64,000 nt of DNA from Phycisphaerae bacterium RAS1 (GTDB lineage Bacteria; Planctomycetota; Phycisphaerae; UBA1845; Fen-1342), in NCBI GenBank assembly GCA_007859745.1, contig SMLU01000001.1, forward strand, positions 930,001-994,000, written 5' to 3'. Of the stretch, positions 35,419 through 61,676 are shown in pieces (the stretch's first letter is position 1; each line of letters starts with the position of its first letter). The position numbers and the translations under genes are program-made. The notes below the pieces were generated by a model, which ran no database searches, had not been told where the DNA came from, and saw nothing but the letters and a program-made list of their open reading frames with translations.

Positions 35419-36459
35419 GTGCTTACGCTTCAAACCGAACGAATTCGCAGACTCTTGCTTCCGGTCGGTACTGGTTGGCTGCTCGCCGATTGCATGGAGG
35501 CCCGCGGAAAGCAGGAGCTCTGGATGCGGCAGAAGCCGGAGGTCGTGAAGGCGCTGCGCGAGCTGGCGATCATCCAAAGCGTCGAATCGTCCAACCGCAT
35601 CGAGGGCGTGACCGTCGCAGCCGACCGGCTGAGGCCTCTTGTGATCGGACACGCAAGGCCGCGCGACCGTTCTGAAGAAGAGCTGGCCGGTTATCGCCGC
35701 GGACTCGATTGGATCTTCACGCGCAAGCGCCCCGTCGCGGTCACGCCGGCCGTCATTCAACATTTGCACAAGCTCGCTCAGCAAGGCGCCGGTGATGCCG
35801 GAAAGCTCAAGGCCCGCGACAACGAAATCATTGAGATTCTGCCATCGGGTGGGCGACGGGTTCGTTTCAAACCGACCCCTGCCGCACGCACCGCTGCGGA
35901 ACTTAACGAGCTTTGCACGGCCTATGAGCATATCTGTGAGCAAGAATCGCTCCCGCCGCTGCTGACGATTGCGACCTTCGTGTTCGACCTGCTCTGCATC
36001 CACCCGTTTCGTGACGGCAACGGCCGAGTCTCGCGACTCGCCACCATCCTCTTGCTCCAGCAAAACCGATTTGAAGTGGGCCGATTCATCAGCATCGAAC
36101 GGCTCATCGAGGAACGGAAAGAAGACTATTACGCCGTGTTGGAGCGATGCTCGAAGGGCTGGCACAAAGGCGAGAACGAGATCGTCCCGTGGTGGAATTT
36201 CCTTCTGGGCGTGATGCGAAGTGCGTACCGGGCGTTTGAGGAGCAGGTCGCCTCTGCCCCGGTACGACAAGCCAAGAGCGAACTCATTCGCCGCATCGCG
36301 CTGGGCAGGCCGGACTCGTTTACGCTCGCCGACATTGCTGCCGAGCTTCCTTCAGCGAGCCCCCAACTCATCAAGAAAGTGCTCGGCAGTATGAAACGTG
36401 CCGGCCAGGTAAAGCTCGTTGGCCGTGGTCGCGGCGCCGAGTGGCGGGTCGTTCGGTAG
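35419..36459 (+). CDS. Fic/DOC family protein with N-terminal autoinhibitory motif
   Basis: A 346-residue Fic protein with a GTG start. The catalytic motif HPFRDGNGRVSRL starts at His195. Upstream, SSNRIEG fits the inhibitory (S/T)xxxE(G/N) helix, with Glu62 expected to block ATP binding, so this is class II. A C-terminal winged helix (FTLADIAAELPSASPQLIKKVLG) suggests DNA binding or dimer control. Fic enzymes transfer AMP to target protein hydroxyls. There is no separate antitoxin gene, consistent with built-in inhibition. It stands at the edge of the mobile-element region and may act in stress response or element maintenance. Confidence 0.92.
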   Translation: MLTLQTERIRRLLLPVGTGWLLADCMEARGKQELWMRQKPEVVKALRELAIIQSVESSNRIEGVTVAADRLRPLVIGHARPRDRSEEELAGYRRGLDWIFTRKRPVAVTPAVIQHLHKLAQQGAGDAGKLKARDNEIIEILPSGGRRVRFKPTPAARTAAELNELCTAYEHICEQESLPPLLTIATFVFDLLCIHPFRDGNGRVSRLATILLLQQNRFEVGRFISIERLIEERKEDYYAVLERCSKGWHKGENEIVPWWNFLLGVMRSAYRAFEEQVASAPVRQAKSELIRRIALGRPDSFTLADIAAELPSASPQLIKKVLGSMKRAGQVKLVGRGRGAEWRVVR

Positions 36460-40146: not shown

Positions 40147-40562
40147 GCGAGGCATGCGTTTTTTTGCGTCCATCGGCTTGGATCACCGCGGACGGCGATG
40201 CGCCGACCGCGACGACCACTTCTACGAGCAAACCCGTGGCATCAGCGTGGACCTGAAGAGCCCTCCGACTCGGGACCGATCCGGCAGTATGGGGGAAGAC
40301 TGCGGAATGATGCCTGACCTTCATCGGCCGTCCCCGTCGGGGACCCCCGCTATGAGCCCCAACGACGACGGCCGAATACGGCAGGCAACCCGCGCACCCA
40401 AGGGGCTGCGAGCACGCGGAGCCCACCGGTAACAGCTCCCGCCGCCGTCGGCGGCGCGCAACGTGCGAGCAGGCCGCCCATCCGGCAATGTCACGCCACC
40501 GGTGCAATTCCGCATAACAGCCTCAGCAGGTGGAACAACCGACCTTTGCAAAGGAGATGACC
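40147..40562. other. Intergenic region with partial dispersed repeat
   Basis: No gene is supported in about 415 bases. Bases 40356-40384 resemble the 3' part of the hairpin repeat at 54206-54283 (shared GACGACGGCCG and TACGGCAG). GTCCCCGTCGGGGAC at 40330-40344 is a small perfect hairpin. AAAGGAG at 40550-40556 serves the next gene. Confidence 0.4.
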
Positions 40563-40841
40563 ATGAAAAACGACATGAAAAGCGAGAAGAACAGGCCCGC
40601 ACACGAGATTCGTTACGGCGGCATCAAGGCCGTGATCTGGCGCAACCAGACCAGCAACGGCACGATGTTCAACGTGACGCTCGCGCGGCTCTACAAAGAT
40701 GGCGAAGACTGGAAGGAAAGCTCGGGCTTCAACACCGAGGATCTGCCCATCATCGCCAAGCTGGCGTACGACGTGCATTCCTGGATTCACGCCCACACCG
40801 AGCGCAAGCCGGCGGCGGAGACGGAGTCCACGGCCGCGTAA
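40563..40841 (+). CDS. Conserved small hypothetical protein of mobile elements
   Basis: A 92-residue protein starting MKNDMKSEKNRPAHEIRYGG; the ATG at 40563 has AAAGGAG six bases before it, better than the upstream in-frame start. The core IKAVIWRNQTSNGTMFNVTLARLYKDG and WKESSGFNTEDLPIIAKLAYDV looks like a compact beta-rich fold with a C-terminal helix. Similar short proteins are familiar from plasmids and integrative elements, where they are unannotated or compared with single-strand-binding proteins. No catalytic residues are evident. Confidence 0.75.
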   Translation: MKNDMKSEKNRPAHEIRYGGIKAVIWRNQTSNGTMFNVTLARLYKDGEDWKESSGFNTEDLPIIAKLAYDVHSWIHAHTERKPAAETESTAA

Positions 40842-40959
40842 CTCCATTGCATTCGCATTCAAGTTGACCGAGGTTGCTCAATCCGTGGTTCTAGCCGAAG
40901 GCCGGAACCACCTGCTTCTCAACCACATGACGCCAACCATCACGTCCCGCAGTCGAGAA

Positions 40960-41290
40960 TCGCCGTCGGCTTCGCCGGCTCCACCGTCGCCGCCGCCGCT
41001 TTGGCTCTGGTTGCGGGTCAGCAAGGACCATGCCGGCCGAGGCCGCCGGCTCCGCCGTCCGCTGCGCGGTCACGGTCCTTGCCGGTTGACCCGCTGCCCG
41101 CCGCCAGCACCGGCGGCCGCGGGCTGTCTGAGGAATCGGGCTGGCGCCCGATGCGTTTTCCTGCTTTCCCGCCGGGCCGGGGTTTGTTCACGAAGAACTG
41201 CGAGTGAACAAAACCCCCGGCCCTCCGGGAAAAAGCTGCCTCCGGCAGCCTCGACGGGACAACACTTCGGCGGTTGAGGGCGCGGCCGAG
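40960..41290. repeat. Structured intergenic repeat, copy 1 (before ardA)
   Basis: About 300 bases are shared with 41945-42265. In order: a long-range stem CAAGGACC (41022-41029) with GGTCCTTG (41074-41081), a hairpin ATCGGGC-TGGC-GCCCGAT, a long stem whose arms are 41174-41191 and 41204-41223 (GTGAACAAAACCCCCGGCCC), and a small hairpin AGCTGCC-TCC-GGCAGC. It lies directly before ardA. The matching copy preserves each stem with compensating changes. Confidence 0.75.
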
Positions 41291-41307
41291 ATTTCAAACG
41301 GAACACG

Positions 41308-41877
41308 ATGGAATCGAAATGCCTGGAACACACCGCGAAAGCACCTGAGACGCCGCGCATCTACGTGGCCTCGCTCGCCGACTACAACGCCGGCTATCTG
41401 CATGGCCGCTGGATTGACGCAGATCAGTCCGCGGACGAGATGCGTAATGAGATTGCCGAACTCCTCGCCGAGTCGAAACAGCCGATTGCCGAAGAATGGG
41501 CCATTCACGACTACGACAACTTCGGCAGCCTGCGACTCTCCGAGTTTGAAGACCTGGAACGTGTCGCGGAGGTTGCACGACTCATCGTCGAACACGGCCC
41601 GCTCTTTGCTGAGCTGGTGAACCATCTCGGCGACGCGTCGAACGTAGAGGAGGCCCGCCGCTACATGGAGGAGGCCTACCGGGGAGCGTTCGACAGTCTG
41701 GCCGATTACGCCGCAGACCTCATCGAGGACTGCTATGCCGACATTCTGAAGAGCCTGCCCGATTTCATCCGCTACCACATCGACTATGACGGCATCGGTC
41801 GCGACCTGGAGCTGGGCGACGACGTGTTCACGGTCTGTTGCGACGGTAAAGTCCACGTCTTCGACGCTCAGATTTGA
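41308..41877 (+). CDS. ardA: Antirestriction protein ArdA
   Basis: A 189-residue acidic protein matching ArdA, a DNA mimic that blocks type I restriction enzymes when an element enters a new cell. Characteristic segments are PRIYVASLADYNAGYLHG near the start, IAEEWAIHDYDNFG in the middle and a strongly Asp/Glu-rich second half ending in DVFTVCCDGKVHVFDAQI. The length is usual for the family. It is preceded by a structured intergenic repeat. The presence of an HsdR-like gene at 63410 gives a local target family, though ArdA generally acts on recipient-cell enzymes. Confidence 0.93.
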   Translation: MESKCLEHTAKAPETPRIYVASLADYNAGYLHGRWIDADQSADEMRNEIAELLAESKQPIAEEWAIHDYDNFGSLRLSEFEDLERVAEVARLIVEHGPLFAELVNHLGDASNVEEARRYMEEAYRGAFDSLADYAADLIEDCYADILKSLPDFIRYHIDYDGIGRDLELGDDVFTVCCDGKVHVFDAQI

Positions 41878-41944
41878 AGTTGAACATCTCGCGGCCCCGT
41901 CGCGTGTGGATTTCAAAACGCTCGAAGCGACTCGGGCACGTGGT

Positions 41945-42265
41945 CCGGCTTCGCCGGCCCCAATGTCGCGTTCGCCGGCTCGGCTCCGGTTGCGGGTCAG
42001 CAGCGACCGTGCCGGCCAAGGCCGCCGGCTGACGCCGTCCGCTACGCGGTCACGGTCGCTGCATTTGCCCCGCTGCCCTGCGCCTGCACCGGCAGCCGCG
42101 GGCTGTCTGAGGAATCGGGCTGACGCCCGATGCGTTTTTTGTTTTCCCGCCGGGCCGGGGGTTTTGTTCACGAGGAACTACGAGTGAACAAAACCCCCGG
42201 CCCTCCGGGAAAAAGCTGCCTCTGGCAGCTTCGTTGAACGTAACTCCGGTTGCGAGGGCGCGGCC
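41945..42265. repeat. Structured intergenic repeat, copy 2
   Basis: Second copy of the element at 40960-41290. The long-range stem is CAGCGACCG (42001-42009) with CGGTCGCTG (42053-42061). ATCGGGC-TGAC-GCCCGAT is followed by TTTTTT and resembles a terminator. The perfect 20-bp stem GGGCCGGGGGTTTTGTTCAC (42152-42171) pairs with 42184-42203 around a 12-base loop, and AAGCTGCC-TCT-GGCAGCTT follows. It precedes the operon starting at 42287. Confidence 0.75.
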
Positions 42266-42286
42266 GATTTATTGGAGACAAGCAAG

Positions 42287-42517
42287 ATGACTCTTATTCC
42301 AACACCGATGCCCGTGGACCTGATGCGGGCTCTAACGCTCATTCACGAAACGGTCTGGAGATACGACCTGTACGTTCCTCTGAACGGTCAAATCAGCGAG
42401 GCGTTTCTCGACGCTCTGGAGACCGTGCGGTGTCACCTGGTCGGCATCCGACGGGACGAATGCGACGAGGAAGTCTCGGCTGCACCCCAGGTTCGCGGGG
42501 AGGGCTGGAGCTTATGA
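42287..42517 (+). CDS. Small hypothetical protein
   Basis: A 76-residue protein, MTLIPTPMPVDLMRALTLIH at its start. The ATG at 42287 has TGGAGA at a normal distance; a TTG 15 bases upstream is a less likely start. It appears helical, with no signal or membrane segment. The stop overlaps the next start (ATGA). Family not recognised; similar small genes accompany ardA in mobile elements. Confidence 0.65.
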   Translation: MTLIPTPMPVDLMRALTLIHETVWRYDLYVPLNGQISEAFLDALETVRCHLVGIRRDECDEEVSAAPQVRGEGWSL

Positions 42518-43071
42518 AGATGGAGGAGAATCAGAGAACCCGTGAACAACTGATATTGCGACGCGAGCAAGGGGCCTACCGGGGCTTGTACGGATGCTGC
42601 CCGTATTGCGGATTCAGCGAGGGACCGTTCAACCTGTACAAGGAGAACTGGTTCGTCTGCACCGAGCATCTCATCCGCTGGTGTGCGAGTTACAATGTCT
42701 TTGACCATCTGGACGGCGAGTGGGACGCGGCGGAAGTGATGGAAAGGTTCCTATCAAAATACCGCGAGATTCCACCGTCCGAAGCAGACCTACCCCCGGA
42801 CACGACGCTCAAGCTGGGATTGGGCCGAACCGTCATCACGCCGGCAGCACAGGAAGCACTCAACGCCGACGATGTTCAGACCTCGCTCGGTCGGCACGCG
42901 TCGGGGGATTGGGGAGACACACACCCGCAGGATGCCCTGGCAAATGACGTTGCGATGGTAAGGGGCGACCGATTGCTCTCCGTCTTTCACGACCGGGCAC
43001 GGACGGCGTTCTGGGTGGTGACCGAGGCAAACCGCTCCGTGACCACCGTGCTACTGCCGGAAGATTACTGA
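42514..43071 (+). CDS. Mobile-element protein with Cys-rich zinc-ribbon-like N-terminus
   Basis: A 185-residue protein. The N-terminal third has CCPYCGF and further Cys/His (VCTEHLIRWC), suggesting a zinc ribbon. The C-terminal third, LGRTVITPAAQEAL to SVFHDRARTAFWVVTEANRSVTTVLLPEDY, matches a domain common in plasmid- and ICE-encoded hypothetical proteins. Its start overlaps the preceding stop by four bases. The function is unknown; the domain is a good marker that this region is an integrated element. Confidence 0.75.
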   Translation: MKMEENQRTREQLILRREQGAYRGLYGCCPYCGFSEGPFNLYKENWFVCTEHLIRWCASYNVFDHLDGEWDAAEVMERFLSKYREIPPSEADLPPDTTLKLGLGRTVITPAAQEALNADDVQTSLGRHASGDWGDTHPQDALANDVAMVRGDRLLSVFHDRARTAFWVVTEANRSVTTVLLPEDY

Positions 43072-44003: not shown

Positions 44004-44648
44004 ATGAGGCTACCATGGACGAATCTGACCGAGCGGGACCGCGACATCCTGGACACGCTCGCGTTACGCGTGCGCGTTCTGTCGGTCGGCCAGATCGCGG
44101 CGGAGTGGTTCGCCTCCACCGCGGATCCTGTCAAGAACGCTCGCCGGCGCGCCGGCGAGTTGGCGTCGATGGGCTGCGTCGGTTGCTTCCCGGCTCGGGT
44201 TCGACCTCCATTGGAGCTGACTGGTCCCTTGGCGCGTTGGAAGCCCAACGACCCCGCGCCGGATCTGAAGCGGATCTCCGGCCAGCTGGCTCGTCGGTGG
44301 ACCGAACCGGTCGAATCGACGCTCCTGGTCACGGCGACGCTCAGGTCGGGCCGCTGGCTGGATGGAGACGGCGGCCGGCGGCCGAGGCGGAGCGAAGGCA
44401 GCCACGACCTGACGGTCGCCGGCGTCTACTTGCACTGGCGACGCCGGGCGCCCGCCGGCGCGGAGTGGGTTTCCGAGGCACGGCTACGGAGACAGGGATT
44501 TGGCGACGAGAGCCGACTTCCGGACGCGATGGTTGTGATGGACGGCGCCCGGACCGTGATCGAGATCGGCGGCGCGTACTCAACCAGGAAGCTGGAAGAG
44601 TTTCACGAGTTCTGCTGGCACGAGGGACTGCCCTATGAAATCTGGTGA
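44004..44648 (+). CDS. Replic_Relax-like winged-helix protein
   Basis: A 214-residue protein. The N-terminus, LTERDRDILDTLALRVRVLSVGQIAAEWF, followed by ARRRAGELASMGCV, is a winged helix of the kind in replication-relaxation (Replic_Relax, PF13814) proteins of conjugative elements. The C-terminus LPDAMVVMDGARTVIEIGGAYSTRKLEEFHEF resembles the nuclease-fold-like end of that family. A TTG 21 bases upstream is an alternative start. It overlaps the next gene by 14 bases and precedes the coupling ATPase, the usual neighbourhood for such proteins, which help process or melt DNA at oriT. Confidence 0.65.
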   Translation: MRLPWTNLTERDRDILDTLALRVRVLSVGQIAAEWFASTADPVKNARRRAGELASMGCVGCFPARVRPPLELTGPLARWKPNDPAPDLKRISGQLARRWTEPVESTLLVTATLRSGRWLDGDGGRRPRRSEGSHDLTVAGVYLHWRRRAPAGAEWVSEARLRRQGFGDESRLPDAMVVMDGARTVIEIGGAYSTRKLEEFHEFCWHEGLPYEIW

Positions 44649-45372: not shown

Positions 45373-47539
45373 CCTGACCGGCATCCAGCTGTTTGTCGAA
45401 CAAACGCCAGGCCCGGCCTTCGGCGCCCTCGCGCCGATCGGTACCACGACCCGGCCGCCAATAGAACTTCTCCGTCCCGTTGAACCCATCACATTCGATC
45501 AGATTTGGCGGGAGATTCCGACTGCGATGTGGTGGGAGATCCTAGAGCGCAAGCGCGTGAGAGAACTTTGCCCCGGCGATGCGACGCCCGAATGGGAGCG
45601 CTATCAGCAGCTGCGCCGTCGCTCGCCGGCGCCGAGGGGCAGCGAAGTGTTCATCGGCCTTGAACGCCGCGTAGAACAGGACAGCGCTCCGACCCAGCGC
45701 CCAATCTTCGCGCCGCGCGAAGTGTTCAAGCACCACGCATACATCCTTGGATTGCCCGGAACCGGAAAGACGGCGCAGGCGCTGGCCACGCTGCTGCTGC
45801 AGTTGGCGGAGGCGTACACCGACAAAGAGGGGCGTTTTGAGCCCCACCCGCCGCTGCTCATCATCGACCTCAAGGAAGGCGGCGACAACTACCTGCGCAC
45901 AATCGCCGCGCAGATCGCCGCATCGCGCGAACAGAAAACGCTGCGGTTCTTTTCCAACGACCCGGACTTCGAGAGCCTGAAGTTCGACCCGCTCTACTGC
46001 CTGCGTTCCATCCGCTACCCGCTCAAGAAGGCGGAGACGATCCTGAAGGCGCTCTCCCTGATCTACAAGGAGGGCTACGGGTCGGATTTCTTCACCGCAG
46101 AGCAGCACACACAGTTGCTCAAGACGCTGTACCAGGATCAGCCGGAGACGCTGGCTGAGATGATTAAATATATCGATGCCGCCACGCGCGGGAACAAGAA
46201 GAACAAGGATGCTCGTGGCCTGTATAGCGCGCTGGCGCCGCTGCAGTATTCCTTCCATCTTGATGAGCGCGACGATCGCTCCGGAAGTGAATTCATCGAT
46301 CTGGAGCGTTTCTACGAAAATGGGGAAGTGCTGTACGTTCACCTGAACTCGCGTTCGCAGTCCATCGACGCGAAGGTGATCGGCAAGCTCATCATCTTCG
46401 CCCTGATGGAGACAGCGGCGGAGCGCAAGAAACAGGGCAACTCGCGTCAGGCGTTTGTCGCGATCGACGAGTTTCAGCGCTTGGCGGCGCAGAACATCGT
46501 CGAAGTGCTCGAAGATTCGCGCTCGCTTGGGGTCGGGTTTGTACTGGCGCACCAGTCACCCGAGTCGCTGCGGACCCGGGAAACCGACCTCTATCGCATG
46601 ATCGCTGACCTGTGCAGCTACAAGCAGTTCCTGTCGCTCACCAGTTCCAATATCGTTGAGCAACTGCAATTGGTGTCCGGACGGCGAATCGAACGCCGGC
46701 AGGGCGAATCCGAGGGGACGACGGAAGGTACGTCGAAGTCCCACGGCTCATCGTTCGGCGAGTCCTCGACCAGCGGAACCTCGAAGGCGAAAACGTATGG
46801 TTGGTTCGTCAATTCTTCGACGACCGATGGGGTGACTCATTCATCCGGCCGGAACAGTTCAAACTCAACCACGAATTCAACCAATGAGGGCAAGTCGAAT
46901 ACGAAGAGTTGGAAGGAAGAGGCCGTTGCCGGGTTGACGCCTGAGGCGATTGCAGCGGTGAACGGAACGCCGCTCTTGTCGTTGATTCACGTTCACTCCA
47001 CGGATGAGCGGTCGGCTACGCCGCTGGGCGGAATTCCGACGCTCGTTCAAGGGCTGTATCCGTTCCACGCCGAGGAAGCACGACGCCGCGGTGAGGCGCG
47101 CTGGGAAATGAAAACCGTGCCGACCGATGACTTCATCGAGAAGGGTCGGGCGCGCCTGCCACGGGGCGCCATCAGTGAAATCCGTGGCAAGCGCCCCAAA
47201 CAGTCCGATGCGGACCGAAAATCGGCGAAAGCGCCGCCGGGTAAAGAGAACGGCGAGGATCAGCGGCTGGACAAGAAACTCCGCGACAGCATCCGCGACG
47301 TAGGCCGCAAACTGAGTGACCAGATCCTGCCGGAGCCGCGGACGGTGCACAGCCTCTCGAAAAACTTCGGCACCGTGCCGGAGATCATCGCTCTGGCGTC
47401 CGAATTCGGTGTGACCGTGAAGGACGACAACGACGTGGTTCCGGCCCGCGTGGTTCGTGAGATTCAGCGCCGTCGGCGCGCGCAGGTGAACGAGCAGACC
47501 GAAAAAGACAACGGGCCCCCACAGGGACCCGTTGTCTGA
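45341..47539 (+). CDS. VirD4/TraG-like type IV coupling ATPase
   Basis: A 732-residue ATPase. The GTG at 45341 is chosen because GGAGGAG lies seven bases upstream; a TTG at 45299 would extend it. Walker A GLPGTGKT is at about 137-144 and Walker B FVAIDEFQRL near 372-381, followed by FVLAHQSPESLR typical of coupling proteins. No N-terminal membrane helix is visible, so it is a soluble, TraG/helicase-HerA-like form. A Ser/Thr/Asn-rich tract (about 450-520) interrupts the C-terminal half. It should link the relaxosome to a secretion channel, but no other type IV secretion genes lie in this window. Confidence 0.8.
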   Translation: MSSQKNSKPLDLTGIQLFVEQTPGPAFGALAPIGTTTRPPIELLRPVEPITFDQIWREIPTAMWWEILERKRVRELCPGDATPEWERYQQLRRRSPAPRGSEVFIGLERRVEQDSAPTQRPIFAPREVFKHHAYILGLPGTGKTAQALATLLLQLAEAYTDKEGRFEPHPPLLIIDLKEGGDNYLRTIAAQIAASREQKTLRFFSNDPDFESLKFDPLYCLRSIRYPLKKAETILKALSLIYKEGYGSDFFTAEQHTQLLKTLYQDQPETLAEMIKYIDAATRGNKKNKDARGLYSALAPLQYSFHLDERDDRSGSEFIDLERFYENGEVLYVHLNSRSQSIDAKVIGKLIIFALMETAAERKKQGNSRQAFVAIDEFQRLAAQNIVEVLEDSRSLGVGFVLAHQSPESLRTRETDLYRMIADLCSYKQFLSLTSSNIVEQLQLVSGRRIERRQGESEGTTEGTSKSHGSSFGESSTSGTSKAKTYGWFVNSSTTDGVTHSSGRNSSNSTTNSTNEGKSNTKSWKEEAVAGLTPEAIAAVNGTPLLSLIHVHSTDERSATPLGGIPTLVQGLYPFHAEEARRRGEARWEMKTVPTDDFIEKGRARLPRGAISEIRGKRPKQSDADRKSAKAPPGKENGEDQRLDKKLRDSIRDVGRKLSDQILPEPRTVHSLSKNFGTVPEIIALASEFGVTVKDDNDVVPARVVREIQRRRRAQVNEQTEKDNGPPQGPVV
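47501..47535 (-). terminator. Intrinsic terminator for minus-strand transcription
   Basis: Read on the minus strand, GACAACGGGTCCC pairs with GGGCCCGTTGTC (one mismatch) around a short loop and is followed by TTTTTC. It overlaps the last codons of the coupling ATPase and would stop transcripts coming from the minus-strand gene at 47948-48256. Confidence 0.65.
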
Positions 47540-48632: not shown

Positions 48633-49709
48633 ATGCGACGAACGTCGCCCAGCACGTTGTTCGAGATCGCCGAGGTGGCGCTAAACGCCACGTCCGACGA
48701 CGTCGAAGCGCGCTGGCAGGAGGTCGTCCAGGCGGCCGACGGGAATCTGGCGGCGATCGACCCCGCCGTACGCAACGCATTCAGCGTGCTGCGCGTGCCT
48801 GCCAACCTGGAGCTTTACCGCGACCTGCTCCGCTCCTGCGCCGAGGAAACGAACATTCCGATCCGTGATGGCGAGGCCGACACGTTTGTCCGTTTCTGCG
48901 CCATGTGCCTGATCACGCCGTTTCAGCACCCGCAGCAGCGCGAGCTGTTCGCCGTGTGCCTGGCTGGCCAGGCGGTGCCCCGCTGGGTGCGGTACGACCC
49001 ACGCACGATGTCGCACCTGCGCATGCGCTGGGGCCAGCGGCTGGAGCAGTGGATTCAGCGCTACTTGTTCGGTGGAGTCTTCCAGAATCGGTCCGCCGGG
49101 GCGCGGTCCATGATCGCCTTGGCCTACTTGGTTGTGCTCGGGGTGATCACGGTCGGCGGGTGGAACCTGCTGCGGGCTGCGGCACTGAACTCGCTTCACT
49201 CAGACCCCACCACTCAACCCGCGCCGGATGCACGTCAGGGCAAACAGCGCCTAACGGATGCTGAGCTGGCTGCCCGGTGCGAACACACCCGGACCGACCT
49301 CCAACGAGTCGAAGAGCAGGAGGCTCGCGTCTATCGAGAATTCGAAGCCGTAGCCGGTGTGAGCATCGCCGAAGCGCTCGCCCGCCGCGGCCGCCGCTCC
49401 AAGGAACTGGACCTTGCGGTCGTTCGCCATCAGTCCGTAAAGGAGGCGTGGACCGCGATCCTTGCCGAACGGGTCGATGCGCTGGAGATTCAGCGACGCA
49501 TCGCTGCACTGGAAGAGATTGAGAAACGGATCGCCGCCAAGGAAGTGCGGGACGCGGATGCCGATTCCGCAATTGAAGCCGAGGCGTGGGCGAAATCAAT
49601 GCTTGAGCGCACGCAACGCCAGCTGTCCAATATCGACCATATTCGAGTCATGCTGGAAGCGGATCGTTTTGAGCAGCCGCTCGACAAGCCAGACCGGAGC
49701 AAGCCATGA
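48633..49709 (+). CDS. Membrane protein with degenerate J-domain-like N-terminus and coiled coil
   Basis: A 358-residue protein. Residues 10-70 (FEIAEVALNATSDDVEARWQ, AFSVLRVPANLELYRDLL) resemble a DnaJ J-domain in helix pattern, but the HPD signature is missing, so any match is degenerate. One membrane helix lies at about 159-180 (SMIALAYLVVLGVITVGGWN). The C-terminal half (about 205-350) is a Glu/Arg/Ala-rich coiled coil. A TATAAT lies at 48594-48599, but no -35 is obvious. The stop overlaps the next start (ATGA). Function unknown. Confidence 0.7.
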   Translation: MRRTSPSTLFEIAEVALNATSDDVEARWQEVVQAADGNLAAIDPAVRNAFSVLRVPANLELYRDLLRSCAEETNIPIRDGEADTFVRFCAMCLITPFQHPQQRELFAVCLAGQAVPRWVRYDPRTMSHLRMRWGQRLEQWIQRYLFGGVFQNRSAGARSMIALAYLVVLGVITVGGWNLLRAAALNSLHSDPTTQPAPDARQGKQRLTDAELAARCEHTRTDLQRVEEQEARVYREFEAVAGVSIAEALARRGRRSKELDLAVVRHQSVKEAWTAILAERVDALEIQRRIAALEEIEKRIAAKEVRDADADSAIEAEAWAKSMLERTQRQLSNIDHIRVMLEADRFEQPLDKPDRSKP

Positions 49710-51601: not shown

Positions 51602-52240
51602 TCAGCGCCGGCCGACGAACAAGGGGCAGGCGTCAGATGGGGGCTTTTGGTAGCGGTAGCGGCGCAGTCGTGCGACGGAACGAGCGATGTCCGCACCGGT
51701 CGCGGCCAGGAACACCCAGTACGCGATCAGCATGTGAGCCGACAGCCCAATCATTGGGCCGACCAGATAGGCGCAGCTCGCCAGAGCCGTGAAGCAGAAT
51801 GCGAGCACTGCGAACACAATCCCCGAGCCGCTCCGCCCGCCGACCTTCTGGCCCCGATTGGGGTGCCGCGATTGAAAGGCGAGCAGCTCCTCGCCGGCGA
51901 TCTGGTTGACCTGCCGCTCGATTTCGTCGATCCGGCGCAGAACGTCTTCCTTGGAGCGCGAATGGCTGATCGTGGTCCGCATCAGCCAGGTCAGCGCCGG
52001 CGGCATGGCGAGCAGGACAACGAGCTTCGAATCCGCGGGAAGCGCGCTGAAACCGCCCAGAACGGCCCCAAGCGCTCCCCCCGCTACGGGCAGGCGACGA
52101 TCGACCGCGGCCAACCGGAACGACAGCAAACCGTAAAGAGCCCGGTATTCCTCGGTGAGAACGCTGATGCGCTCCGACTCGCTCAGTGTGCCCGGCGGCG
52201 ATGGCACGGCAATGCGTTGCGTAGTTGCGTCCACTGACAT
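51602..52240 (-). CDS. Hypothetical four-helix membrane protein (SLATT-like layout)
   Basis: A 212-residue protein. Two hydrophobic segments lie near 52-90 (LPVAGGALGAVLGGFSALPA, LVVLLAMPPALTWLM) and two near 145-195 (IVFAVLAFCFTALASCAYLV, MLIAYWVFLAATGADIA), separated by a charged helix (EDVLRRIDEIERQVNQI). This pair-helix-pair layout is like SLATT-type membrane effectors of conflict systems, but the match is only architectural. No nucleotide-cyclase or other partner is adjacent. Confidence 0.6.
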   Translation of the reverse strand: MSVDATTQRIAVPSPPGTLSESERISVLTEEYRALYGLLSFRLAAVDRRLPVAGGALGAVLGGFSALPADSKLVVLLAMPPALTWLMRTTISHSRSKEDVLRRIDEIERQVNQIAGEELLAFQSRHPNRGQKVGGRSGSGIVFAVLAFCFTALASCAYLVGPMIGLSAHMLIAYWVFLAATGADIARSVARLRRYRYQKPPSDACPLFVGRR

Positions 52241-52314
52241 TCAGAGGATTCTGATGATGTGCGTCGGCTGAACGGTTCAAGGCCCGTTGTGGCACGTCAA
52301 TAAGGAGGTGCGTG

Positions 52315-52992
52315 ATGTTAGAAGTTGCGATGGATCTTGAAGCTGGATTGCAGGTCTTGGCCGGCGCCGCAAGGACGCCGGCGGTTGGCTGGTCCGGGTC
52401 ACTTTGCGAGTTCTTCGACGTGGGGCGGCGCTTCCTCCGGCGAGCCCATGCCGACATCCGCTCGGGGCGGCTTCGTTCACCCGCGTTCTTGTTTGGCTCG
52501 GCCGGTGAACACGGGTTGGGCGCGACCCTCGAATTTCTGAGCCGACGAATCGACCACGAGTACCCAATCGAGCTGCGCTCGCCGTTCGAAGAGACCGAGT
52601 CGATCGCGGGGGCCTTGTGGTCCGGGAAGGAGCTGCTGGGCGAAGAACGAGAAGACGGCCTCGCCAAACTGCGATTCGCTCGCGGAACGCTCGACCTGCC
52701 CGTCCACGTACACGAGCACTCGGATCGATTTATCGCGGTTCTCCGTGGGGCCGGCCGGTTCTGGTGGTCCGAACAGACGCTCGACCAATTCGACGCGCGA
52801 CAAATCGAGTCAGTCTCCGTAGTGGCGGGTGACGTGCTCGTATTCACACGAAACTTGCTGCACACCTTCAGCGCGCCCGACGAGGAACTCGTCTTGCTGT
52901 CGTATCACAGCCCAGAGATTCCTTTCGACGACCCCCGGCAATACACCATCCCAGCGACCCGCTGGGCGCCCAGGTTTGCTCAGCTCACATGA
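52315..52992 (+). CDS. Cupin-domain protein
   Basis: A 225-residue protein. The C-terminal half is a cupin barrel: LDLPVHVHEHSDRFIAVLRGAGRFWW gives the first motif with candidate metal-ligand His residues, and VVAGDVLVFTRNLLHTFSAP the second. The N-terminal 100 residues are not recognised. The ATG at 52315 has AAGGAGG six bases upstream. Such cupins bind sugars, metals or small acids; the substrate is unknown. It stands alone between two hypothetical genes. Confidence 0.8.
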   Translation: MLEVAMDLEAGLQVLAGAARTPAVGWSGSLCEFFDVGRRFLRRAHADIRSGRLRSPAFLFGSAGEHGLGATLEFLSRRIDHEYPIELRSPFEETESIAGALWSGKELLGEEREDGLAKLRFARGTLDLPVHVHEHSDRFIAVLRGAGRFWWSEQTLDQFDARQIESVSVVAGDVLVFTRNLLHTFSAPDEELVLLSYHSPEIPFDDPRQYTIPATRWAPRFAQLT

Positions 52993-53118: not shown

Positions 53119-54105
53119 ATGAAGGCGGTACAACAGCAATTCCAGTGGCTCGACGCCGGCGATGCGACGAAAAAACCGCCTCCTGCGGCTGAAAATGCCG
53201 AACTCGACGCATCGCTTCCGGAACGTCAACCGACCGGGCAGCCCACCTCTGCGCACGATGAAATCAACCTGATTCAAGCGGAGCGCGCGGACCGACCGGA
53301 CGGTCTGCCCATTCCGGCGCCGTTACCCCAGGCTGTAGATGCAGGAGTGTTCGGCCAAACCGTTAACGGGCCGGTGGAACCGGACGTTGATGAGGTTGCG
53401 GCGCTTACTGAACAACACGCCGATGAAATGATCGTCCTTCTCGCCGACTGCAACGCGATCGAAGATTCGATCCGTGACGGCTGCGATCCGCGCACCGGAC
53501 GTGTGCCAAAGACGCCCGAGGCTCGAACCCGGCTCGCAGAATCCCTGCAAGCGGAGGCGCATCGTCTGAGCACGGCTTACGCAGACGCAGTCGCCGCCTA
53601 CGCGGGAGCGTTCGGCGACGAAGCTGCCCAGGCGCTGGATGTCTGGGTCCGGAAGGCAACCGCCGACGCGTGCGCTGTGTCACCCTCATACGACGCGACG
53701 CATCCGTGGCACTACTTCCACGCCGGCGACAACGCGATTCCGGTCCCCGTAGGCGAAATACCGGCCGACGACCAGGCCGGCCAATTTGTTGAACGCGATC
53801 TCCCCAAGCATCCCGCCAAACGGCTCGCGAGGTTGCGTGAGCTGTTCGCGCGGGAATCGCAACTGTTGGAGGCTGATCGCGCGCGTTACATGGAGATCGT
53901 CGAGCGCGGAGCGGAAGCGCTCAGCCGCTACGACCGCGAGATCGCGCACACCAGTGACGCAATGGCCCGCGCAACCACACTCGCGCTCAAGTACCGGCAT
54001 GTGAGCCTGGGCTTGGGCCGCGTGCAATGGATCCGCGCGGAATTGCGTCGGCTGGGTGCCGTCGATCTGTTCGAGCCAAGCAACAGCATGGACGACTCGA
54101 CCTGA
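53119..54105 (+). CDS. Hypothetical helical protein
   Basis: A 328-residue protein (335 if the GTG at 53098 is used; neither start has a clear ribosome site). The first 90 residues are Pro/Ala/Asp-rich and probably disordered. The remainder is mostly helical and acidic with ALTEQHADEMIVLLADCNAI and RLRELFARESQLLEADRARY, possibly a coiled coil. No domain recognised. It lies in the element region and may be an accessory or structural protein. Confidence 0.55.
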   Translation: MKAVQQQFQWLDAGDATKKPPPAAENAELDASLPERQPTGQPTSAHDEINLIQAERADRPDGLPIPAPLPQAVDAGVFGQTVNGPVEPDVDEVAALTEQHADEMIVLLADCNAIEDSIRDGCDPRTGRVPKTPEARTRLAESLQAEAHRLSTAYADAVAAYAGAFGDEAAQALDVWVRKATADACAVSPSYDATHPWHYFHAGDNAIPVPVGEIPADDQAGQFVERDLPKHPAKRLARLRELFARESQLLEADRARYMEIVERGAEALSRYDREIAHTSDAMARATTLALKYRHVSLGLGRVQWIRAELRRLGAVDLFEPSNSMDDST

Positions 54106-54652
54106 ACGGGGTGGTTGACACGCAAGTCCTCCGCCACGTTGGCGCGGACGAGCGCCCTCCGACTCTGGTCCATACCGGCAGCGGGGCTGCGCCGATGGCT
54201 GCCTGGCACGTCCGCCCTCATCGGGGCGGGGGGCCTGCCGGCCTCGCGGGGCGAGCCCCGATGACGACGGCCGTGTACGGCAGCAGCACCAAACACTGTT
54301 TGATTAGCGGCTACCAGCTGTGGCAGTATGTCGAAGGGAACAGCGTCGTACAGCACGGCCGGTCCACACCTCGATTGTCAGTCGCACGGTGTCACGCCGC
54401 AGCAACGCACGAGATCGTTCAAACTGAACAACCGTCCGGCACGTTGGGCCGTGCGATTCTGTTCCCTCGTACATTGCTGCGGCGACCAGGAACTCCGCTT
54501 TCCTCGTTGGTGCCGCACACCGAGCCGGGTAGACGAACAGACCGACCCTCGATGGACGCGCGGCGTGCGCCGAGAGGCCGGTGGTGCATTTCACGGTTTG
54601 GATACGGTTCATTTCATTTCGCTAACGCGACCAACACAAAGGAGACGTGCAT
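54106..54652. repeat. Intergenic region with hairpin repeat (copy at 54206-54283)
   Basis: No gene is supported in about 550 bases. CATCGGGGC (54219-54227) pairs with GCCCCGATG (54255-54263); the flanks and interior match 36715-36794. TTTCATTTCGCTAACGCG near 54610 precedes AAAGGAG at 54639-54644 for the DUF932 gene. Confidence 0.55.
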
Positions 54653-56986: not shown

Positions 56987-58657
56987 TTACGGTTCGTCCG
57001 CGTCGCCGACTTCGGATGGCTCGCCCGAGGTAATGTCGCGGATGGGCTGCCGACGCCCGAAGAGCTTGGTAAGCACGATTTCCGCGTCGTCAACCACCAC
57101 GAACCAGCGCCGTTTGAACTGGACGATTTCCTCGACGAAACCATAACGCCGCAATTCGTCGCGGTTGCCGGGAACACCGTTGAGGACCAGTTCAACGATC
57201 TCGTCGCCCGCGAGTCGCGAGCGCATCAGCCGCCAGCCGTTGTCCAGCTCAATGACTCCGCCGCCTTCGAGAATTGCCAGAATCTCGCCAACCGAGGCCT
57301 CGCCCAGTGGTGTACCGATTCCCAGGCGTTGCTTGACGTTCGGCACATCGGACGGACTCAGGTTCAGACCGACGAGCGCGCGCCCGTCCGCGAGAACCGC
57401 CCGGGCGATCTTGACGCTCTGAATGCCGGACGAGCCCATGATCTTGTCGTAGATGGGAAAAATGGCGCCGCTGAGAATGTAAAACCGCTTCGGCTCGGTT
57501 GCCGGCGTATTGTCGTATTCCCGGTCCCACCAGGGTCGTGCAACGTCGCGCTCAACGGGCTCGTATTTTTCAGTCAGTTCGTAGCGCTCCAGTCCGCGCC
57601 GTGCTCCCTTCACCGCCGTCAACAACACCTCGTTGGGTCGTGTTTCGATGTGCTCGCTCACGGCGTAGATTCGACCGCTACGGAGATTGCGGAAGAATCC
57701 CTCGCCCGCATGCATGATCGCGGCGGCGAACGTGTGCCGTTCGACTTCGACCTCGCCTTCCAATTCGTGCAACAGTGTGCGAGCGCCAGAGGCGGGATCG
57801 ACGAAAAGCAACTGCGGTTTGGTAACGGACCGCAGATTCTTCGCCCGGATCTCCTCGACTCCGAAATCGAATGCACCAGCGCGCTTGGCAGCCTCCACGG
57901 CCTCGACGTAACGCGCGTAGAACAACTCAAAGATGTGGTTCTGCTTCTCGACGTGCAGCACCATGATGCGGTTGAGGAACTGCTCGACGTTGCGCGCGTA
58001 GTTGTCGCGGACCGCCGTCTTCTCCTTGTTCAGAACGCCCATCCGCTCCAGGTCGCGCATTCCAAGGCCGGCGTCCACGTGCTCATTTCGCTCCACCTGC
58101 CGATACAGGCGGGTCAGTGCCGCCTTGCCGTATTCGTCTGTCACGTCCTCCGGTCGAAACAGGTCACTCGACAACGAATGCCGCTCACCCTTGGTGAGCG
58201 CTCCGAGCGCCGCAAGCCGCTTGGAAATTGCGTTGACGAGCCGCTTCTGGCCGGCGAGGTCCAGGAGGACGAGCCGAATGATCGGCGCTGAGGTTTGGTT
58301 CGAGCGATGCACGCGACCGAATGCCTGCATCTGCTGGTCAGCGGACCAGGAAAGCTGAAAGGCATAGAACGCCCGGCGCTGCTGATTGTGAGCCATGACA
58401 TCGGCGTGAACGCTGATGCCGGTCGAGCCGGCGCCGGAGATGATGGCGAGCCGCTTGCGACCCGATTGAAAAAGGCGCGTTTCGTACTCGTTAAGCTGGC
58501 GCCGCGGAACGCCATGCAGTTTCCGTCGGACGTACTTGCCGTTCTCCCACCGGTGTGTCCGGCCGCTGATTTCCGCGACGCTCTGCACACCAAAGTGGGA
58601 AACAAGCGCGTCCATCGGATTGTGCGGAAAGTCCAGGTCGGCGACTTTCTCCAGCAA
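56987..58657 (-). CDS. Strawberry-notch-type helicase, C-terminal part (frameshifted from 58491-61544)
   Basis: This 556-residue frame carries the C-terminal part of a strawberry-notch family SF2 helicase: LAIISGAGSTGISVHADVMA, LSWSADQQMQAFGRVHRSNQ and the downstream regulatory region. It has no ribosome site of its own. In the same frame upstream of its first Met, ARYQRRQKELLEKVADLD continues the helicase sequence that breaks off in the larger ORF after GNPEINRE. The two frames therefore belong to one gene with a shift near 58680-58690, in the run CTCGCGG. Either a real inactivating mutation, programmed frameshifting or a sequencing error could explain it. Confidence 0.8.
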   Translation of the reverse strand: MLEKVADLDFPHNPMDALVSHFGVQSVAEISGRTHRWENGKYVRRKLHGVPRRQLNEYETRLFQSGRKRLAIISGAGSTGISVHADVMAHNQQRRAFYAFQLSWSADQQMQAFGRVHRSNQTSAPIIRLVLLDLAGQKRLVNAISKRLAALGALTKGERHSLSSDLFRPEDVTDEYGKAALTRLYRQVERNEHVDAGLGMRDLERMGVLNKEKTAVRDNYARNVEQFLNRIMVLHVEKQNHIFELFYARYVEAVEAAKRAGAFDFGVEEIRAKNLRSVTKPQLLFVDPASGARTLLHELEGEVEVERHTFAAAIMHAGEGFFRNLRSGRIYAVSEHIETRPNEVLLTAVKGARRGLERYELTEKYEPVERDVARPWWDREYDNTPATEPKRFYILSGAIFPIYDKIMGSSGIQSVKIARAVLADGRALVGLNLSPSDVPNVKQRLGIGTPLGEASVGEILAILEGGGVIELDNGWRLMRSRLAGDEIVELVLNGVPGNRDELRRYGFVEEIVQFKRRWFVVVDDAEIVLTKLFGRRQPIRDITSGEPSEVGDADEP

Positions 58658-61544
58658 TTCCTTCTGACGACGCTGGTATCTCGCGGTTGATCTCAGGATT
58701 GCCAGCGGCGTCCAGGACCCGAACGCTGACGACGTTCCCCGTGAGCGGGTCGGTCTGCTCGCGATACTGGAACAAAGGAAACTGGGTTTCTATGAGCTGA
58801 ACGATCATCTCGCGCGGAGTGGCGTCCAGCTCGCTCAACTCCACGCCCTGGGCGCGTGCGTCACGCACCTTGCGGTCTGCCTGGGCCTCGCCCGTGTTGA
58901 ACAAGCTGAGCACTACCGACCGACCGGCATTCAGGTCCGCCCGAATCGCCGGAATCACATCCGGCAGCGAATACGCCAGCATGAGTTGCAGAAAGAAACG
59001 CTGCTGCGCGGCGTAGAACTGAGCGTAACGGTGCGCGTTGCGCTTCTGATGCGCGTGTTGTTCCGCTGACTCGAACGCGACGAGCAGCTCGGACCACAGG
59101 TCGGCGATCACGTCATACTGCCGCCGCTCGTCATCGGTCATCTTGTGCAGGAGCGGCTCGTACTCAACTGCGCTGTCCGGAACGATCGTGCCATCCGTCC
59201 GGCGCGTCGGACCGTAGCTGATCGTGCGCGATAAGTAAGTGCCGACGGATTTCAGGTCGCGGCAGAGCATCTCCATCGCGGCCACACCGCCGCGTTCCAT
59301 CGCCACCAGGAATGCCGAAAAATCGGGAAACGGCGCGCCGTCGCCCCACAGCCCTAGTCGCTCATACGGGGCCATGTGCCGCGCCTCGGTGGCGCCGGTG
59401 GCGCTGAAGTAGCGCACCCGTGCCTGGGGGAACATCCGCTGCAATGCGATGCCCATGTTCCCCCGCAGTGTCCCTTCATCAACCGTGGCCTTGCCCCCAT
59501 GCGGCGTCGCCGCAGCGTTCTTCATCAGGTGAGCTTCATCGAAGGCAATCACGCCGTCGAATTCCGGCCCGAGCCAATCGACGAGCTGTTTGAATCGAGG
59601 ACGCTCGCCATCGAAGTCGATCGACAGGAGCGTGTACGTCGTGAAGAGAACGCCGGAATCGGCTTGAATCACGTCCGAGTGCTTCGAGCGGGCTTGATGG
59701 ATGATGCGAAGCGGCAACCCGACGGCGTCGCGGTCGCGCTCGGCGTCAGCGACCAGTTGATGCGATGCTGAAATGTGAACGTGCCTGCTCCGACCTCGTT
59801 GAAGCTGATCGTAGATGAATGCGTAGATTTCGCGGCCCTTGCCGATTCCCGTGCCATCGCCATTCCAGTGCCCGCGTCGAGAACCATCGGGAAGCAGTGA
59901 TTCGGTTGCCTGGCCGGCGTAGATCACGTCTTCAAGTTGTATGTCCGAAACCCAGCCTTCACGCACGACATCGCCTGGCAGTGCATGCCGATACTGCACA
60001 TCAGGCGGCTCAACCGAGGCCATCGCCGTAGATTCGACGACGTTGGCGGGATGCGACTCCGTGCCATGAACGCGGGCTTTCTGAACGCGGTAGGCCGCGT
60101 AGACCGACCCCTCTTCGATCCGTAGGAGATGCGACTGCTGCGGCTCGCCAGGCGATGCTACGCAATGTTCAGGCGCGCCAGCGTGCTGACCACCAGACGC
60201 GCTGCCCAACTCCGCATCATTCCTTCGCTCTTCGGGAGCGGCGGTTTCTCCCATTCGAGCGTCGCATTCATGGCGGCTCGCGCCGCTCGCGGTCGTTCCG
60301 CTAGCAGGCGATTCCAGGTGATCCAGATTTCGGACATCTCGAAGCTCGCCGCATTCACCGGTGAGTCCCACGCGTCCAGAAGGTGTGCAATCAGCTCCAC
60401 CAACGGATCCGCTCCGTGCGGGCACTCCTGCCTGGTCAGGAATTGAAGTGCGCCCGCCGCCTGAACTCGAATCGAATCTGCGAATTCGCCCATAAACATC
60501 CTCCTGTGAAATCTCTTCAAGCTGCACCCATGCTTGGTGTAGCGTGAGTCTTGTGCCGGTGACGATTGTCGAGGGATCAGTGGTCGAGCCGTCGTGGTCG
60601 ATGACGATGATCTGGTTGTCAAAAGTCGTGCCGAACTTCGAGTAGGCGTTGCCGTCGATGCCGATGTTGGCCCGCACGCGAAAGCGATCTTTGATGTCAG
60701 CCCACCAAGCTTGGAACTTGGGGCGGTCCAGCGCCATACCCCGTCCGACGACCGCGACCAATCGGCCACCCGGCTTCAGCCTCAATAGGGCCTGTTCCAC
60801 ATGACGTGCCCCGAACTCGACGTTGTGACCGTTCACGCGACCCCCGGTCGCCGAAAATGGCGGGTTCATCACGATGGCGTCGTACAGCCGGTCCGGTGGG
60901 AGCAGGTTGTCGAGCCGCTCAGCGTCGAACGCAGTCGGCCTGAAGCCTTGCAGCTCCAACAGGCCCCGGCGGCGCGGGTCGATCTCGTTTGTATCGACGG
61001 TCGCGCCAGCGAGTCTCGCCAGAACGGCGAGACTCCCCGTCCCCGCACTCGGCTCAAGGACGTTCATGCCCGTGCAAATAGCCGCCGCGCTCACGACCAG
61101 CAGCGCCTCGGCGGGCGGCGTGCTGAATTGCTGAAGTTCGACCTGCGTAACGTCTCGCCGAGTTTGCCGTGGCATGCGGTCCTGTAGCGCGAGCAGCACC
61201 TCGGCTGACCCGGGCACGTCTACCAAGTCGAGAGCCGCGCGGGCTATGCAGATGTTCATTCCGGCTTCGGCCGCGTCGTACAGGTCGCGTGCGTGACCAG
61301 CCGAGCTTCCGAAGGACTCTCCGGCAAGCTGGTTCAGCGTGTGATTGTTGAACACCGATTTGGATTGAGCTTCCAGCAGCGACGCAACCCGCCGCGCGAG
61401 TAGGGCGACGGGGAGCGCCAGCCCATCGCCGTTTGGCTTCGCCACCAACTCGCTTCCGACTCTTTCGGCACCAGCTAGCGTCCCTTCCGTTTCGCGGGGA
61501 GGAGCCACGGACCAATCGAACTGGAACTGCGTAAACTTCGCCAT
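58491..61544 (-). CDS. DNA methyltransferase / strawberry-notch helicase fusion, N-terminal part
   Basis: An ORF of 1017 residues from the ATG at 61544 (MAKFTQFQFDWSVAPPRETE); the frame extends further up without support. Residues about 130-340 form a class I methyltransferase with NVLEPSAGTGSLAV and the catalytic NPPFSATGGRVNGHNVEFGA. After a linker (about 350-480) comes the SF2 ATPase core, with P-loop-like GNGTGIGKGREIYAF and a literal DEAH box in VIAFDEAHLMKN. The frame breaks off near 58685; the last 65 or so residues are out of frame. Such proteins are carried by plasmids and ICEs, probably in DNA modification or anti-defence. The linker overlaps a separate small gene (60158-60493). Confidence 0.78.
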   Translation of the reverse strand: MAKFTQFQFDWSVAPPRETEGTLAGAERVGSELVAKPNGDGLALPVALLARRVASLLEAQSKSVFNNHTLNQLAGESFGSSAGHARDLYDAAEAGMNICIARAALDLVDVPGSAEVLLALQDRMPRQTRRDVTQVELQQFSTPPAEALLVVSAAAICTGMNVLEPSAGTGSLAVLARLAGATVDTNEIDPRRRGLLELQGFRPTAFDAERLDNLLPPDRLYDAIVMNPPFSATGGRVNGHNVEFGARHVEQALLRLKPGGRLVAVVGRGMALDRPKFQAWWADIKDRFRVRANIGIDGNAYSKFGTTFDNQIIVIDHDGSTTDPSTIVTGTRLTLHQAWVQLEEISQEDVYGRIRRFDSSSGGGRTSIPDQAGVPARSGSVGGADCTPSGRVGLTGECGELRDVRNLDHLESPASGTTASGASRHECDARMGETAAPEERRNDAELGSASGGQHAGAPEHCVASPGEPQQSHLLRIEEGSVYAAYRVQKARVHGTESHPANVVESTAMASVEPPDVQYRHALPGDVVREGWVSDIQLEDVIYAGQATESLLPDGSRRGHWNGDGTGIGKGREIYAFIYDQLQRGRSRHVHISASHQLVADAERDRDAVGLPLRIIHQARSKHSDVIQADSGVLFTTYTLLSIDFDGERPRFKQLVDWLGPEFDGVIAFDEAHLMKNAAATPHGGKATVDEGTLRGNMGIALQRMFPQARVRYFSATGATEARHMAPYERLGLWGDGAPFPDFSAFLVAMERGGVAAMEMLCRDLKSVGTYLSRTISYGPTRRTDGTIVPDSAVEYEPLLHKMTDDERRQYDVIADLWSELLVAFESAEQHAHQKRNAHRYAQFYAAQQRFFLQLMLAYSLPDVIPAIRADLNAGRSVVLSLFNTGEAQADRKVRDARAQGVELSELDATPREMIVQLIETQFPLFQYREQTDPLTGNVVSVRVLDAAGNPEINREIPASSEGIAGESRRPGLSAQSDGRACFPLWCAERRGNQRPDTPVGERQVRPTETAWRSAAPA
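60158..60493 (-). CDS. Nested small gene inside the methyltransferase-helicase ORF
   Basis: A 111-residue protein in a different frame of the same strand, starting MGEFADSIRVQAAGALQFL. AGGAGG lies six bases before the ATG. It looks more protein-like (IAHLLDAWDSPVNAASFEMS, WITWNRLLAERPRAARAA) than the overlapping frame of the large ORF, whose linker here is Gly/Ser/Arg-rich. Either the large ORF reads through a real small gene by chance, meaning the methyltransferase and helicase were once separate genes flanking it, or both frames are translated. No family recognised. Confidence 0.6.
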   Translation of the reverse strand: MGEFADSIRVQAAGALQFLTRQECPHGADPLVELIAHLLDAWDSPVNAASFEMSEIWITWNRLLAERPRAARAAMNATLEWEKPPLPKSEGMMRSWAARLVVSTLARLNIA

Positions 61545-61676
61545 GAGCCTCTTCAAAAACACCGGCAGAACGGTCATTAGCGTTATGGTCGACCGGGAGA
61601 GCAACGTCGCATGGCGTTGACGACCGCCCGACTCTCGGTACAATTCGGGTTGTGTCTGGCACAAGGATTTTGGTGG

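Follow-up and report, generated by a model that had tools for sequence, protein, structure and literature searches.

Repeated structured elements before ardA and a neighboring operon of a planctomycete integrative element: candidate single-stranded DNA regulators of establishment genes

Introduction

Single-strand promoters have been demonstrated for enterobacterial plasmids, in the Frpo/ssi regions of F and ColIb-P9 (PMC9849209, PMC11541004). How the establishment genes of mobile elements elsewhere are turned on is an open matter, as exemplified by EGeRS1 in Bacillus, whose repeats precede ardC and four other establishment operons of pLS20, immediately upstream of the ribosome binding site in each case. 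The mechanism is left open by the authors, who state that there is no evidence for ssDNA or RNA, and one copy, EGeRS1-B, stops read-through in its native orientation (PMC8708921). A motif termed 'Rhodopirellula-1', found in Proteobacteria and Planctomycetes and absent as an entry from Rfam, is listed in a further study (PMC2864571); PMC7213743 was also considered. A search of the literature outside most subscription journals yielded no description of such elements in planctomycetes.

The locus examined here lies in Phycisphaerae bacterium RAS1, within a 64,000-nucleotide stretch of DNA (the window; positions 930001-994000 of contig 1 of a 5.5 Mb genome), and resembles these systems in that structured repeats precede an antirestriction gene and an adjoining operon. 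A sequence-only reading had proposed that the repeats form a conserved RNA or single-stranded DNA structure, such as a leader controlling antirestriction genes after transfer in the manner of the single-stranded promoters of conjugative plasmids, an attenuator or a non-coding RNA. We consider that they act as ssDNA regulatory elements by which an integrative mobile element controls its establishment (early) genes, a reading that we place at about an even chance of being right.

Results

Two repeats with a common fold precede ardA and the next operon

The two repeats announced by the sequence-only reading are present at ~40967-41289 (copy 1) and ~41945-42267 (copy 2); they are 85% identical over 326 aligned columns, and each is ~280 nt in size. 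Copy 1 is separated by ~20 nt from the start of ardA (41308..41877, plus strand), an antirestriction gene of 189 aa (PF07275 E 2.8e-38), and copy 2 by a similar gap of ~20 nt from a small ORF (42287..42517, plus strand) that heads the downstream operon and is kept in relatives. The second gene of this operon (42514..43071, plus strand) carries in its C-terminal half the motif LGxxVxTPxA...RHxxGDWG...VYH...TTVLLPEDY, and its relatives are found right behind the element in loci L107, L121, L138 and L065.

Each copy follows the same four-part plan. P1 is the long-range stem; P2 and P4 are a short and a small hairpin, respectively, and between them lies P3, a long hairpin with a 12-nt loop. We assign all four to the minus strand, the strand inferred to fold and complementary to the downstream genes. 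P1 spans 41013..41094 in copy 1 and 41992..42073 in copy 2, with an apical core GYGCCRG..GTCAYG in the former. Its long-range stem is formed by GCAAGGACC (41021-41029) and GGTCCTTGC (41074-41082) in copy 1, where these make up the inner part of P1, and by GCAGCGACC (42000-42008) and GGTCGCTGC (42054-42062) in copy 2, and the two pairs said to have changed on both sides with pairing kept are indeed found in the sequence. The two further hairpins of the earlier description correspond to P2 (ATCGGGC/GCCCGAT at 41135..41152 in copy 1, with a short T run after it on the plus strand; 42114..42131 in copy 2) and P4 (GCTGCC/GGCAGC at 41235..41249 in copy 1; 42215..42229 in copy 2). That description also names a 20-bp stem with a 12-base loop, which is without flaw only in P3 of copy 2 (42142..42213), where an outer helix of 8 bp, a 2x2 internal loop and an inner helix of 20 bp lead to the loop at 42172-42183; P3 of copy 1 (41165..41232; loop 41192-41203, with GCGA at the loop end on the plus strand) has two one-base bulges. 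Folding of either copy surpasses all of its dinucleotide shuffles (z -4.5 with 100 shuffles, z -7.3 with 200 shuffles).

Upstream of copy 1 lies a small conserved gene of 92 aa (40563..40841, plus strand; NRPxHEIRYG...NGxMxNVTxxRLYKDG), without a Pfam or NCBIfam match, which serves as a marker of the module. It is itself preceded by a hairpin on the minus strand (40301..40398, loop 40343-40356) that belongs to a different sequence family, termed family B, and shows a like strand bias.

Additional copies reside on a second integrative element

Two more copies, overlooked in the sequence-only reading, occur in the same genome on the minus strand (G000:C1 1108351-1108654 and 1109365-1109668), in the order element-ardA-element-operon that is seen in the window. 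They sit on a second, diverged integrative element (G000:C1:1086000-1114000; loci L067 and L024) that is syntenic with 36.7-61.3 kb of the window, the larger blocks being roughly 66-76% identical in DNA sequence. Genes for ParA, a coupling-protein-like ATPase (PF10412 E 5.6e-8), a DUF932 protein and a tyrosine recombinase are found on this integrative element. The host thus carries two related elements of this kind. By the same synteny, genes for strawberry-notch-type helicases (PF13871, PF13872) and a methyltransferase-like stretch at 56987-61784 of the window are element-borne. A Fic/DOC family gene (PF02661, E 3.2e-16; window 35419-36459) adjoins the left end of the element.

The fold is conserved with covariation, and in the genomes sampled the full model hardly extends beyond one order

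Across 11 sequences, 83.4% of the cells in the named P2-P4 structure pair, and in the same alignment (A2) 13 pairs, and likewise 28 cells, are changed on both sides. The covariation score of A2 is 0.211 as compared with 0.122 for shuffled alignments, and none of 500 shuffles attains the observed score or the above figures for paired cells, doubly changed pairs and doubly changed cells; sliding of A2 lowered the score to 0.045-0.099 and the proportion of paired cells to 44-58%. For the full element, RNAalifold gives 59 pairs, 17 of them with double changes. The outer helix of P1 differs in sequence among lineages and from copy 1 with pairing present in each (GCGGTGC/GCACCGC in L025 and L030, GCGTTCG/CGAACGC in L031, GCGGCAT/ATGCCGC in L029), and the P1 core, GYGCCRG..CYGTCAYG, is kept. 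The 3′ end of the P3 loop on the coding strand is nearly always GYGA (TCRC on the minus strand), and the minus-strand loops of P2 and P1 often read cGNNAg or cGNAg. Loops of these two types are favored by DNA.

None of 4227 Rfam families reached its gathering score in the window, and relaxing the threshold to E 1 brought up no more than two models, both of animal microRNAs and far below their cut-offs; a known Rfam family was rejected on this basis. Cassette ends of the attC type were also considered, and inspection of the sequence by eye showed no R-box-like ends.

The sequence-only reading made its proposal depend on the existence of further homologs with covariation, and a covariance-model search recovered them. 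Within the order, a model of the 3′ half of the element (R1) matches 8 of 114 genomes, namely that of the window and seven others (G056 weakly), and in a class sample it matches 11 of 397 genomes, where the new matches (G240, G315 and G382) are all weak; G315 and G240, without P3 and without the gene context, were dropped. A phylum sample of 392 genomes gave a single match, the window's own, so that within the genomes sampled the full model hardly extends beyond the order. A plasmid relative was sought by blastn, and its sole match (Shinella) covers query positions 394-466, which are ardA coding sequence outside the element. The marker-gene pattern matched 35 times among viral contigs, and none of these matches was confirmed.

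In most R1-positive genomes the element lies between the homolog of the small conserved gene (40563-40841) and the operon, without ardA. The ancestral site therefore seems to be the one before the operon, and this distribution suggests that ardA arrived together with a second copy of the element.

Related elements precede several kinds of early-type genes

A scan of genome contigs with the small marker protein gave 104 confirmed loci, of which 80 were kept, from Planctomycetota, Verrucomicrobiota and others as their records are titled, and R1 together with a hairpin scan across 1.34 Mb added further members. Complete or nearly complete members stand directly before ardA in the window, in the second element (L024) and in another family of the class (L070), where the ardA reading frame is broken and was used as context only. 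Elsewhere they directly precede the gene with the LGxxVxTPxA..RHxxGDWG motif (L065, L107, L121, L138) or a DUF2958 gene (L066; PF11171 E 2.5e-20), and relatives bearing P1 and P3 occur before ardC-type genes (L027, L029, L076, L089, L107; in L076, PF08401 E 9.6e-13) or, in L133, L134 and L135, before the small gene itself. Six of the eight ArdA loci found in related genomes have no element. The link to ardA drawn in the earlier reading is thus not specific to this gene.

Hairpins of family B, which that reading had missed, precede the small-gene homolog in L024, L027, L075, L076, L078 and L089; their loop differs from that of family A, and they are flanked by CGACTCGGGACCGATCCGGCAG. Family B also occurs before a DUF932-type gene in L094 (L094:9290), with a further site at L109:2672. 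One of these contigs, L078 (WIAH01000031.1), is titled Nitrospira sp. CR1.3 MAG, and its small gene and family B hairpin reflect either a recent transfer or a mis-binned contig.

Stem mismatches suggest that the template strand folds

A stem of RNA or ssDNA tolerates G.T (G.U) but not A.C, and the opposite strand shows the reverse at the same site. In the P3 segments of 19 elements, read on the coding strand and with a score that treats both mismatches alike, we counted 4 G.T and 28 A.C. Scan-defined hairpins, counted after 11 P1-type hairpins had been set aside, gave 3 G.T versus 26 A.C for family A (17 hairpins), 1 versus 25 for family B (9 hairpins) and 0 versus 6 for the ardC group (5 hairpins); the three hairpins from outside the order (L133, L134, L135) had 3 of each. 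The other 169 hairpins of the same loci, taken as a control, are balanced (310 G.T versus 334 A.C), and resampling gave 0.006 for family A, 0.0006 for family B, 0.13 for the ardC group and 0.55 for L133/L134/L135. P1 alone has no clear bias (14 G.T, 18 A.C). The starts of the P1 and P3 segments were picked by eye from the folds; these named segments and the scan-defined hairpins replaced a whole-element hairpin count (198 G.T, 210 A.C), which was uninformative owing to indiscriminate pairing.

The excess of A.C over G.T on the coding strand places the conserved P3 fold on the minus strand. The same pattern might alternatively arise from C-to-T change on an exposed minus strand, which would also imply that this strand is often single.

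Folding energies favor the same strand

The minimum energy of the minus strand is lower than that of the plus strand in all 19 elements with DNA parameters and in 18 with RNA parameters. When z values were calculated against 100 dinucleotide shuffles, the minus strand was favored in 17 of 19 elements (DNA; slightly negative in L029 and L031) and in 19 of 19 (RNA). Grouping the elements by hand into 12 lineages, among them L076b and L135 of the ardC group and the small-gene group, leaves the minus strand favored in 11 (DNA) and in all 12 (RNA). For 52 ordinary upstream regions of the window and plasmid pPSMK1, the means are -0.07 (DNA) and -0.20 (RNA), with values above 2 in one region and none, respectively; the lineages lie above these regions (Mann-Whitney p 1.8e-6 for DNA, 1.9e-5 for RNA).

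Frpo1 and Frpo2 of F, used as positive controls, point in the same direction as the elements (DNA z 2.64 and 1.80; RNA z 3.80 and 2.51), and 6S, rnpB and the btuB leader of E. coli have the opposite sign (DNA -3.16, -0.39 and -0.99; RNA -1.96, -2.39 and -0.47). The template strand is likewise favored in all five EGeRS1 copies of pLS20 (L164; record coordinates 44008-44427, 45760-46374, 48993-49499, 51909-52523 and 53848-54445), with DNA z of 4.8-7.1 and RNA z of 0.7-1.75, these copies being 93-98% identical to each other and hence hardly independent. Among the 12 lineage means of the planctomycete elements, 8 have a higher DNA z than RNA z, which leans toward DNA and falls short of proof.

Marker-gene plasmids of cultured relatives

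The relaxase family PF03432 was not found above its cut-off in any of nine genomes searched, and no oriT was found near the window element. The small marker gene also occurs on six planctomycete plasmids, five of which were tested, with Pla133 left out as a record near-identical to Pla86. The DNA z upstream of the small gene is 2.42 in pPSMK1, 1.80 in pSINAC03, 3.51 in PALBO2, 1.17 in pK2D and -0.30 in pPla86. Plasmid pPSMK1 (NC_017081; Phycisphaera mikurensis, typed as conjugative) has four related structured repeats, all on one strand (~11.6-11.9, 10.0-10.35, 8.2-8.5 and 54.0-54.2 kb), three of which precede the small gene, ardC and radC. The copies before the latter two genes are without clear bias (DNA z 0.68 and -0.65, respectively).

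On pPSMK1, a relaxase gene (DUF3363) and transfer genes at 60-75 kb are directed away from a gap at 75-78 kb, toward which the ardC group heads from the opposite side, and on pPla86 the small gene is directed toward mobC and the relaxase gene. On both plasmids the marker gene points toward the relaxase/MobC genes from the side on which a leading region would be expected. The relaxase gene usually enters last in transfer, and the template strand of these genes would therefore be the transferred strand. This layout, which is not proof, applies to pPSMK1 and pPla86 and not to the element in the window.

Discussion

A proposed single-stranded DNA switch for establishment genes

The elements are repeated and conserved, covary, exhibit a fold bias toward the template strand and stand right before genes of an early type. 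Among the options of the sequence-only reading, these results favor ssDNA, and they speak against a sense mRNA leader or attenuator, since the fold is kept on the complementary strand. We infer the following course of events. The mobile element would arrive in a new host cell as a single strand of DNA, the folded strand being the one transferred, and at each repeat this strand, complementary to the genes, would fold into P1, P2, P3 and P4. The fold would recruit the transcription (or priming) machinery, presumably RNA polymerase, and allow expression of the antirestriction gene and the adjoining operon ahead of second-strand synthesis. Once the DNA is double-stranded, the fold would be lost and the genes would fall silent, with the P2 and P3 hairpins perhaps helping to silence them by acting against upstream read-through. 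In L135 and the ardC group (L027, L029, L076, L089), the outer P3 stem pairs with the Shine-Dalgarno stretch GGAGGAC (GTCC..TCC/GGAGGAC), and one idea is that read-through messages would thereby be shut and messages begun within the fold would be open. Linear scans of the 19 elements gave no -35/-10 boxes above shuffles, with only single scores in L030 and L066 at the upper end of the shuffles; such a scan is blind to promoters of the Frpo kind, Frpo1 and Frpo2 likewise scoring no higher than shuffles. Counting against the ssDNA reading are the negative searches for a PF03432 relaxase and an oriT, the lack of clear bias in P1, in L133, L134 and L135, in two copies on pPSMK1 and on pPla86, the slightly negative DNA z of L029 and L031, and the ArdA loci that have no element.

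Alternative readings

If the elements acted through an antisense RNA, a transcript of the minus strand would fold and, in place of folded DNA, target the sense leader of both ardA and the operon. The wobble pattern and energy bias would then be the same, and RNA z does exceed DNA z for L025, L026-L029 and L066. However, a pattern scan of 40500-42700 revealed no sigma-70-like or other promoter-like site on either strand. The more distant members L107, L121, L138, L070, L076b and L135 have DNA z above RNA z, as does EGeRS1, and the DNA-favored loops of minus-strand P1 and P2 also argue against an RNA. We regard this reading as unlikely.

We assign a similarly low probability, ranked just behind, to a function in the duplex only, by which a terminator or insulator block, or protein-binding palindromes, would shield the early genes from upstream promoters. 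It fits the eight terminator-like sites found, as compared with 1.9 expected in shuffles, the T run that follows P2 in both window copies, and the arrest of read-through by EGeRS1-B (PMC8708921). Yet it leaves the excess of A.C over G.T unexplained, the T run after P2 is absent in L028 and L031, and a terminator has no need of P1.

The strand logic would be identical for a single-strand origin or priming site (sso/ssi), where synthesis of the second strand would begin from the folded one and gene expression would be a by-product. Large imperfect hairpins whose loops share a conserved end (minus-strand TCRC) would suit such a site. Gene control is a better fit to several copies per element, each right before a gene start, and we judge this alternative to be improbable.

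Finally, a sense riboswitch or attenuator was rejected on the strand evidence. In favor of a leader or attenuator in the sense mRNA of ardA and the operon, one might cite the position just upstream of start codons and the pairing of outer P3 with GGAGGAC in L135 and the ardC group. This reading is highly improbable given that the sense-strand mismatches are A.C and not G.U, that in 18 of 19 elements the sense strand folds worse by RNA energies than its antisense counterpart, and that 6S, rnpB and the btuB leader have the opposite sign.

Implications and comparison with known systems

If ssDNA regulation is correct, planctomycetes would also use single-strand switches for establishment genes, and the balance of A.C and G.T in stems, combined with two-strand energies against shuffles, would separate folding of a DNA strand from that of a sense RNA. 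The strand test bears on EGeRS1 as well, where each of the five copies favors the template strand, above all with DNA energies, and it offers a route to early and anti-defence genes in mobile elements of unknown regulation. A broader proposal, which we advance tentatively and hold to be less likely than not, is that one kind of switch before anti-defence genes, a template strand that folds only while entering as ssDNA, arose convergently in, or is common to, unrelated mobile elements of Pseudomonadota (Frpo), Bacillota (EGeRS1) and Planctomycetota/Verrucomicrobiota, that most of these start transcription on folded DNA by some means other than a rebuilt sigma-70 promoter, and that they can be found by template-strand fold bias alone, with no need of similarity in sequence.

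No sequence match to EGeRS1 or Frpo/ssi was better than E 0.03, and an identity above 60% to pLS20 EGeRS1 was not reached; as judged by sequence comparison, the planctomycete element would be an establishment-gene ssDNA element without sequence kinship to the known ones. STAXI (RF01728) resembles it in consisting of structured repeats near ssb and antirestriction genes that its authors discuss as possible ssDNA (PMC2864571). It differs in being composed of tandem pseudoknots and in its occurrence in Enterobacteriales (PMC2864571), and the window has no Rfam match.

The likeness to EGeRS1 lies in several hairpin-rich repeats per mobile element, each directly before establishment operons that include antirestriction genes, and in the apparent lack of a constitutive sigma-70-type promoter, which on the planctomycete side is judged from pattern scans; the minus-strand fold bias in the same energy test is also shared. 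EGeRS1 differs in belonging to Bacillota and in its length of 400-750 bp, whereas the elements described here are ~280 nt, follow the P1-P4 plan and reside on integrative elements in which no relaxase was found.

Frpo/ssi is a single long hairpin, imperfectly paired, for which -35/-10 boxes have been reported and promoter activity demonstrated, whereas such activity is predicted for the planctomycete element. The published accounts (PMC9849209, PMC11541004) place repeated structured regions before leading genes, among them antirestriction genes, with the fold on the template strand of these genes, as in the planctomycete elements. The leading region of F encodes a DNA methylase, antirestriction proteins and a DUF932 protein, the last of which is likewise encoded in the window, and Frpo shares with the planctomycete elements the sign of the strand test.
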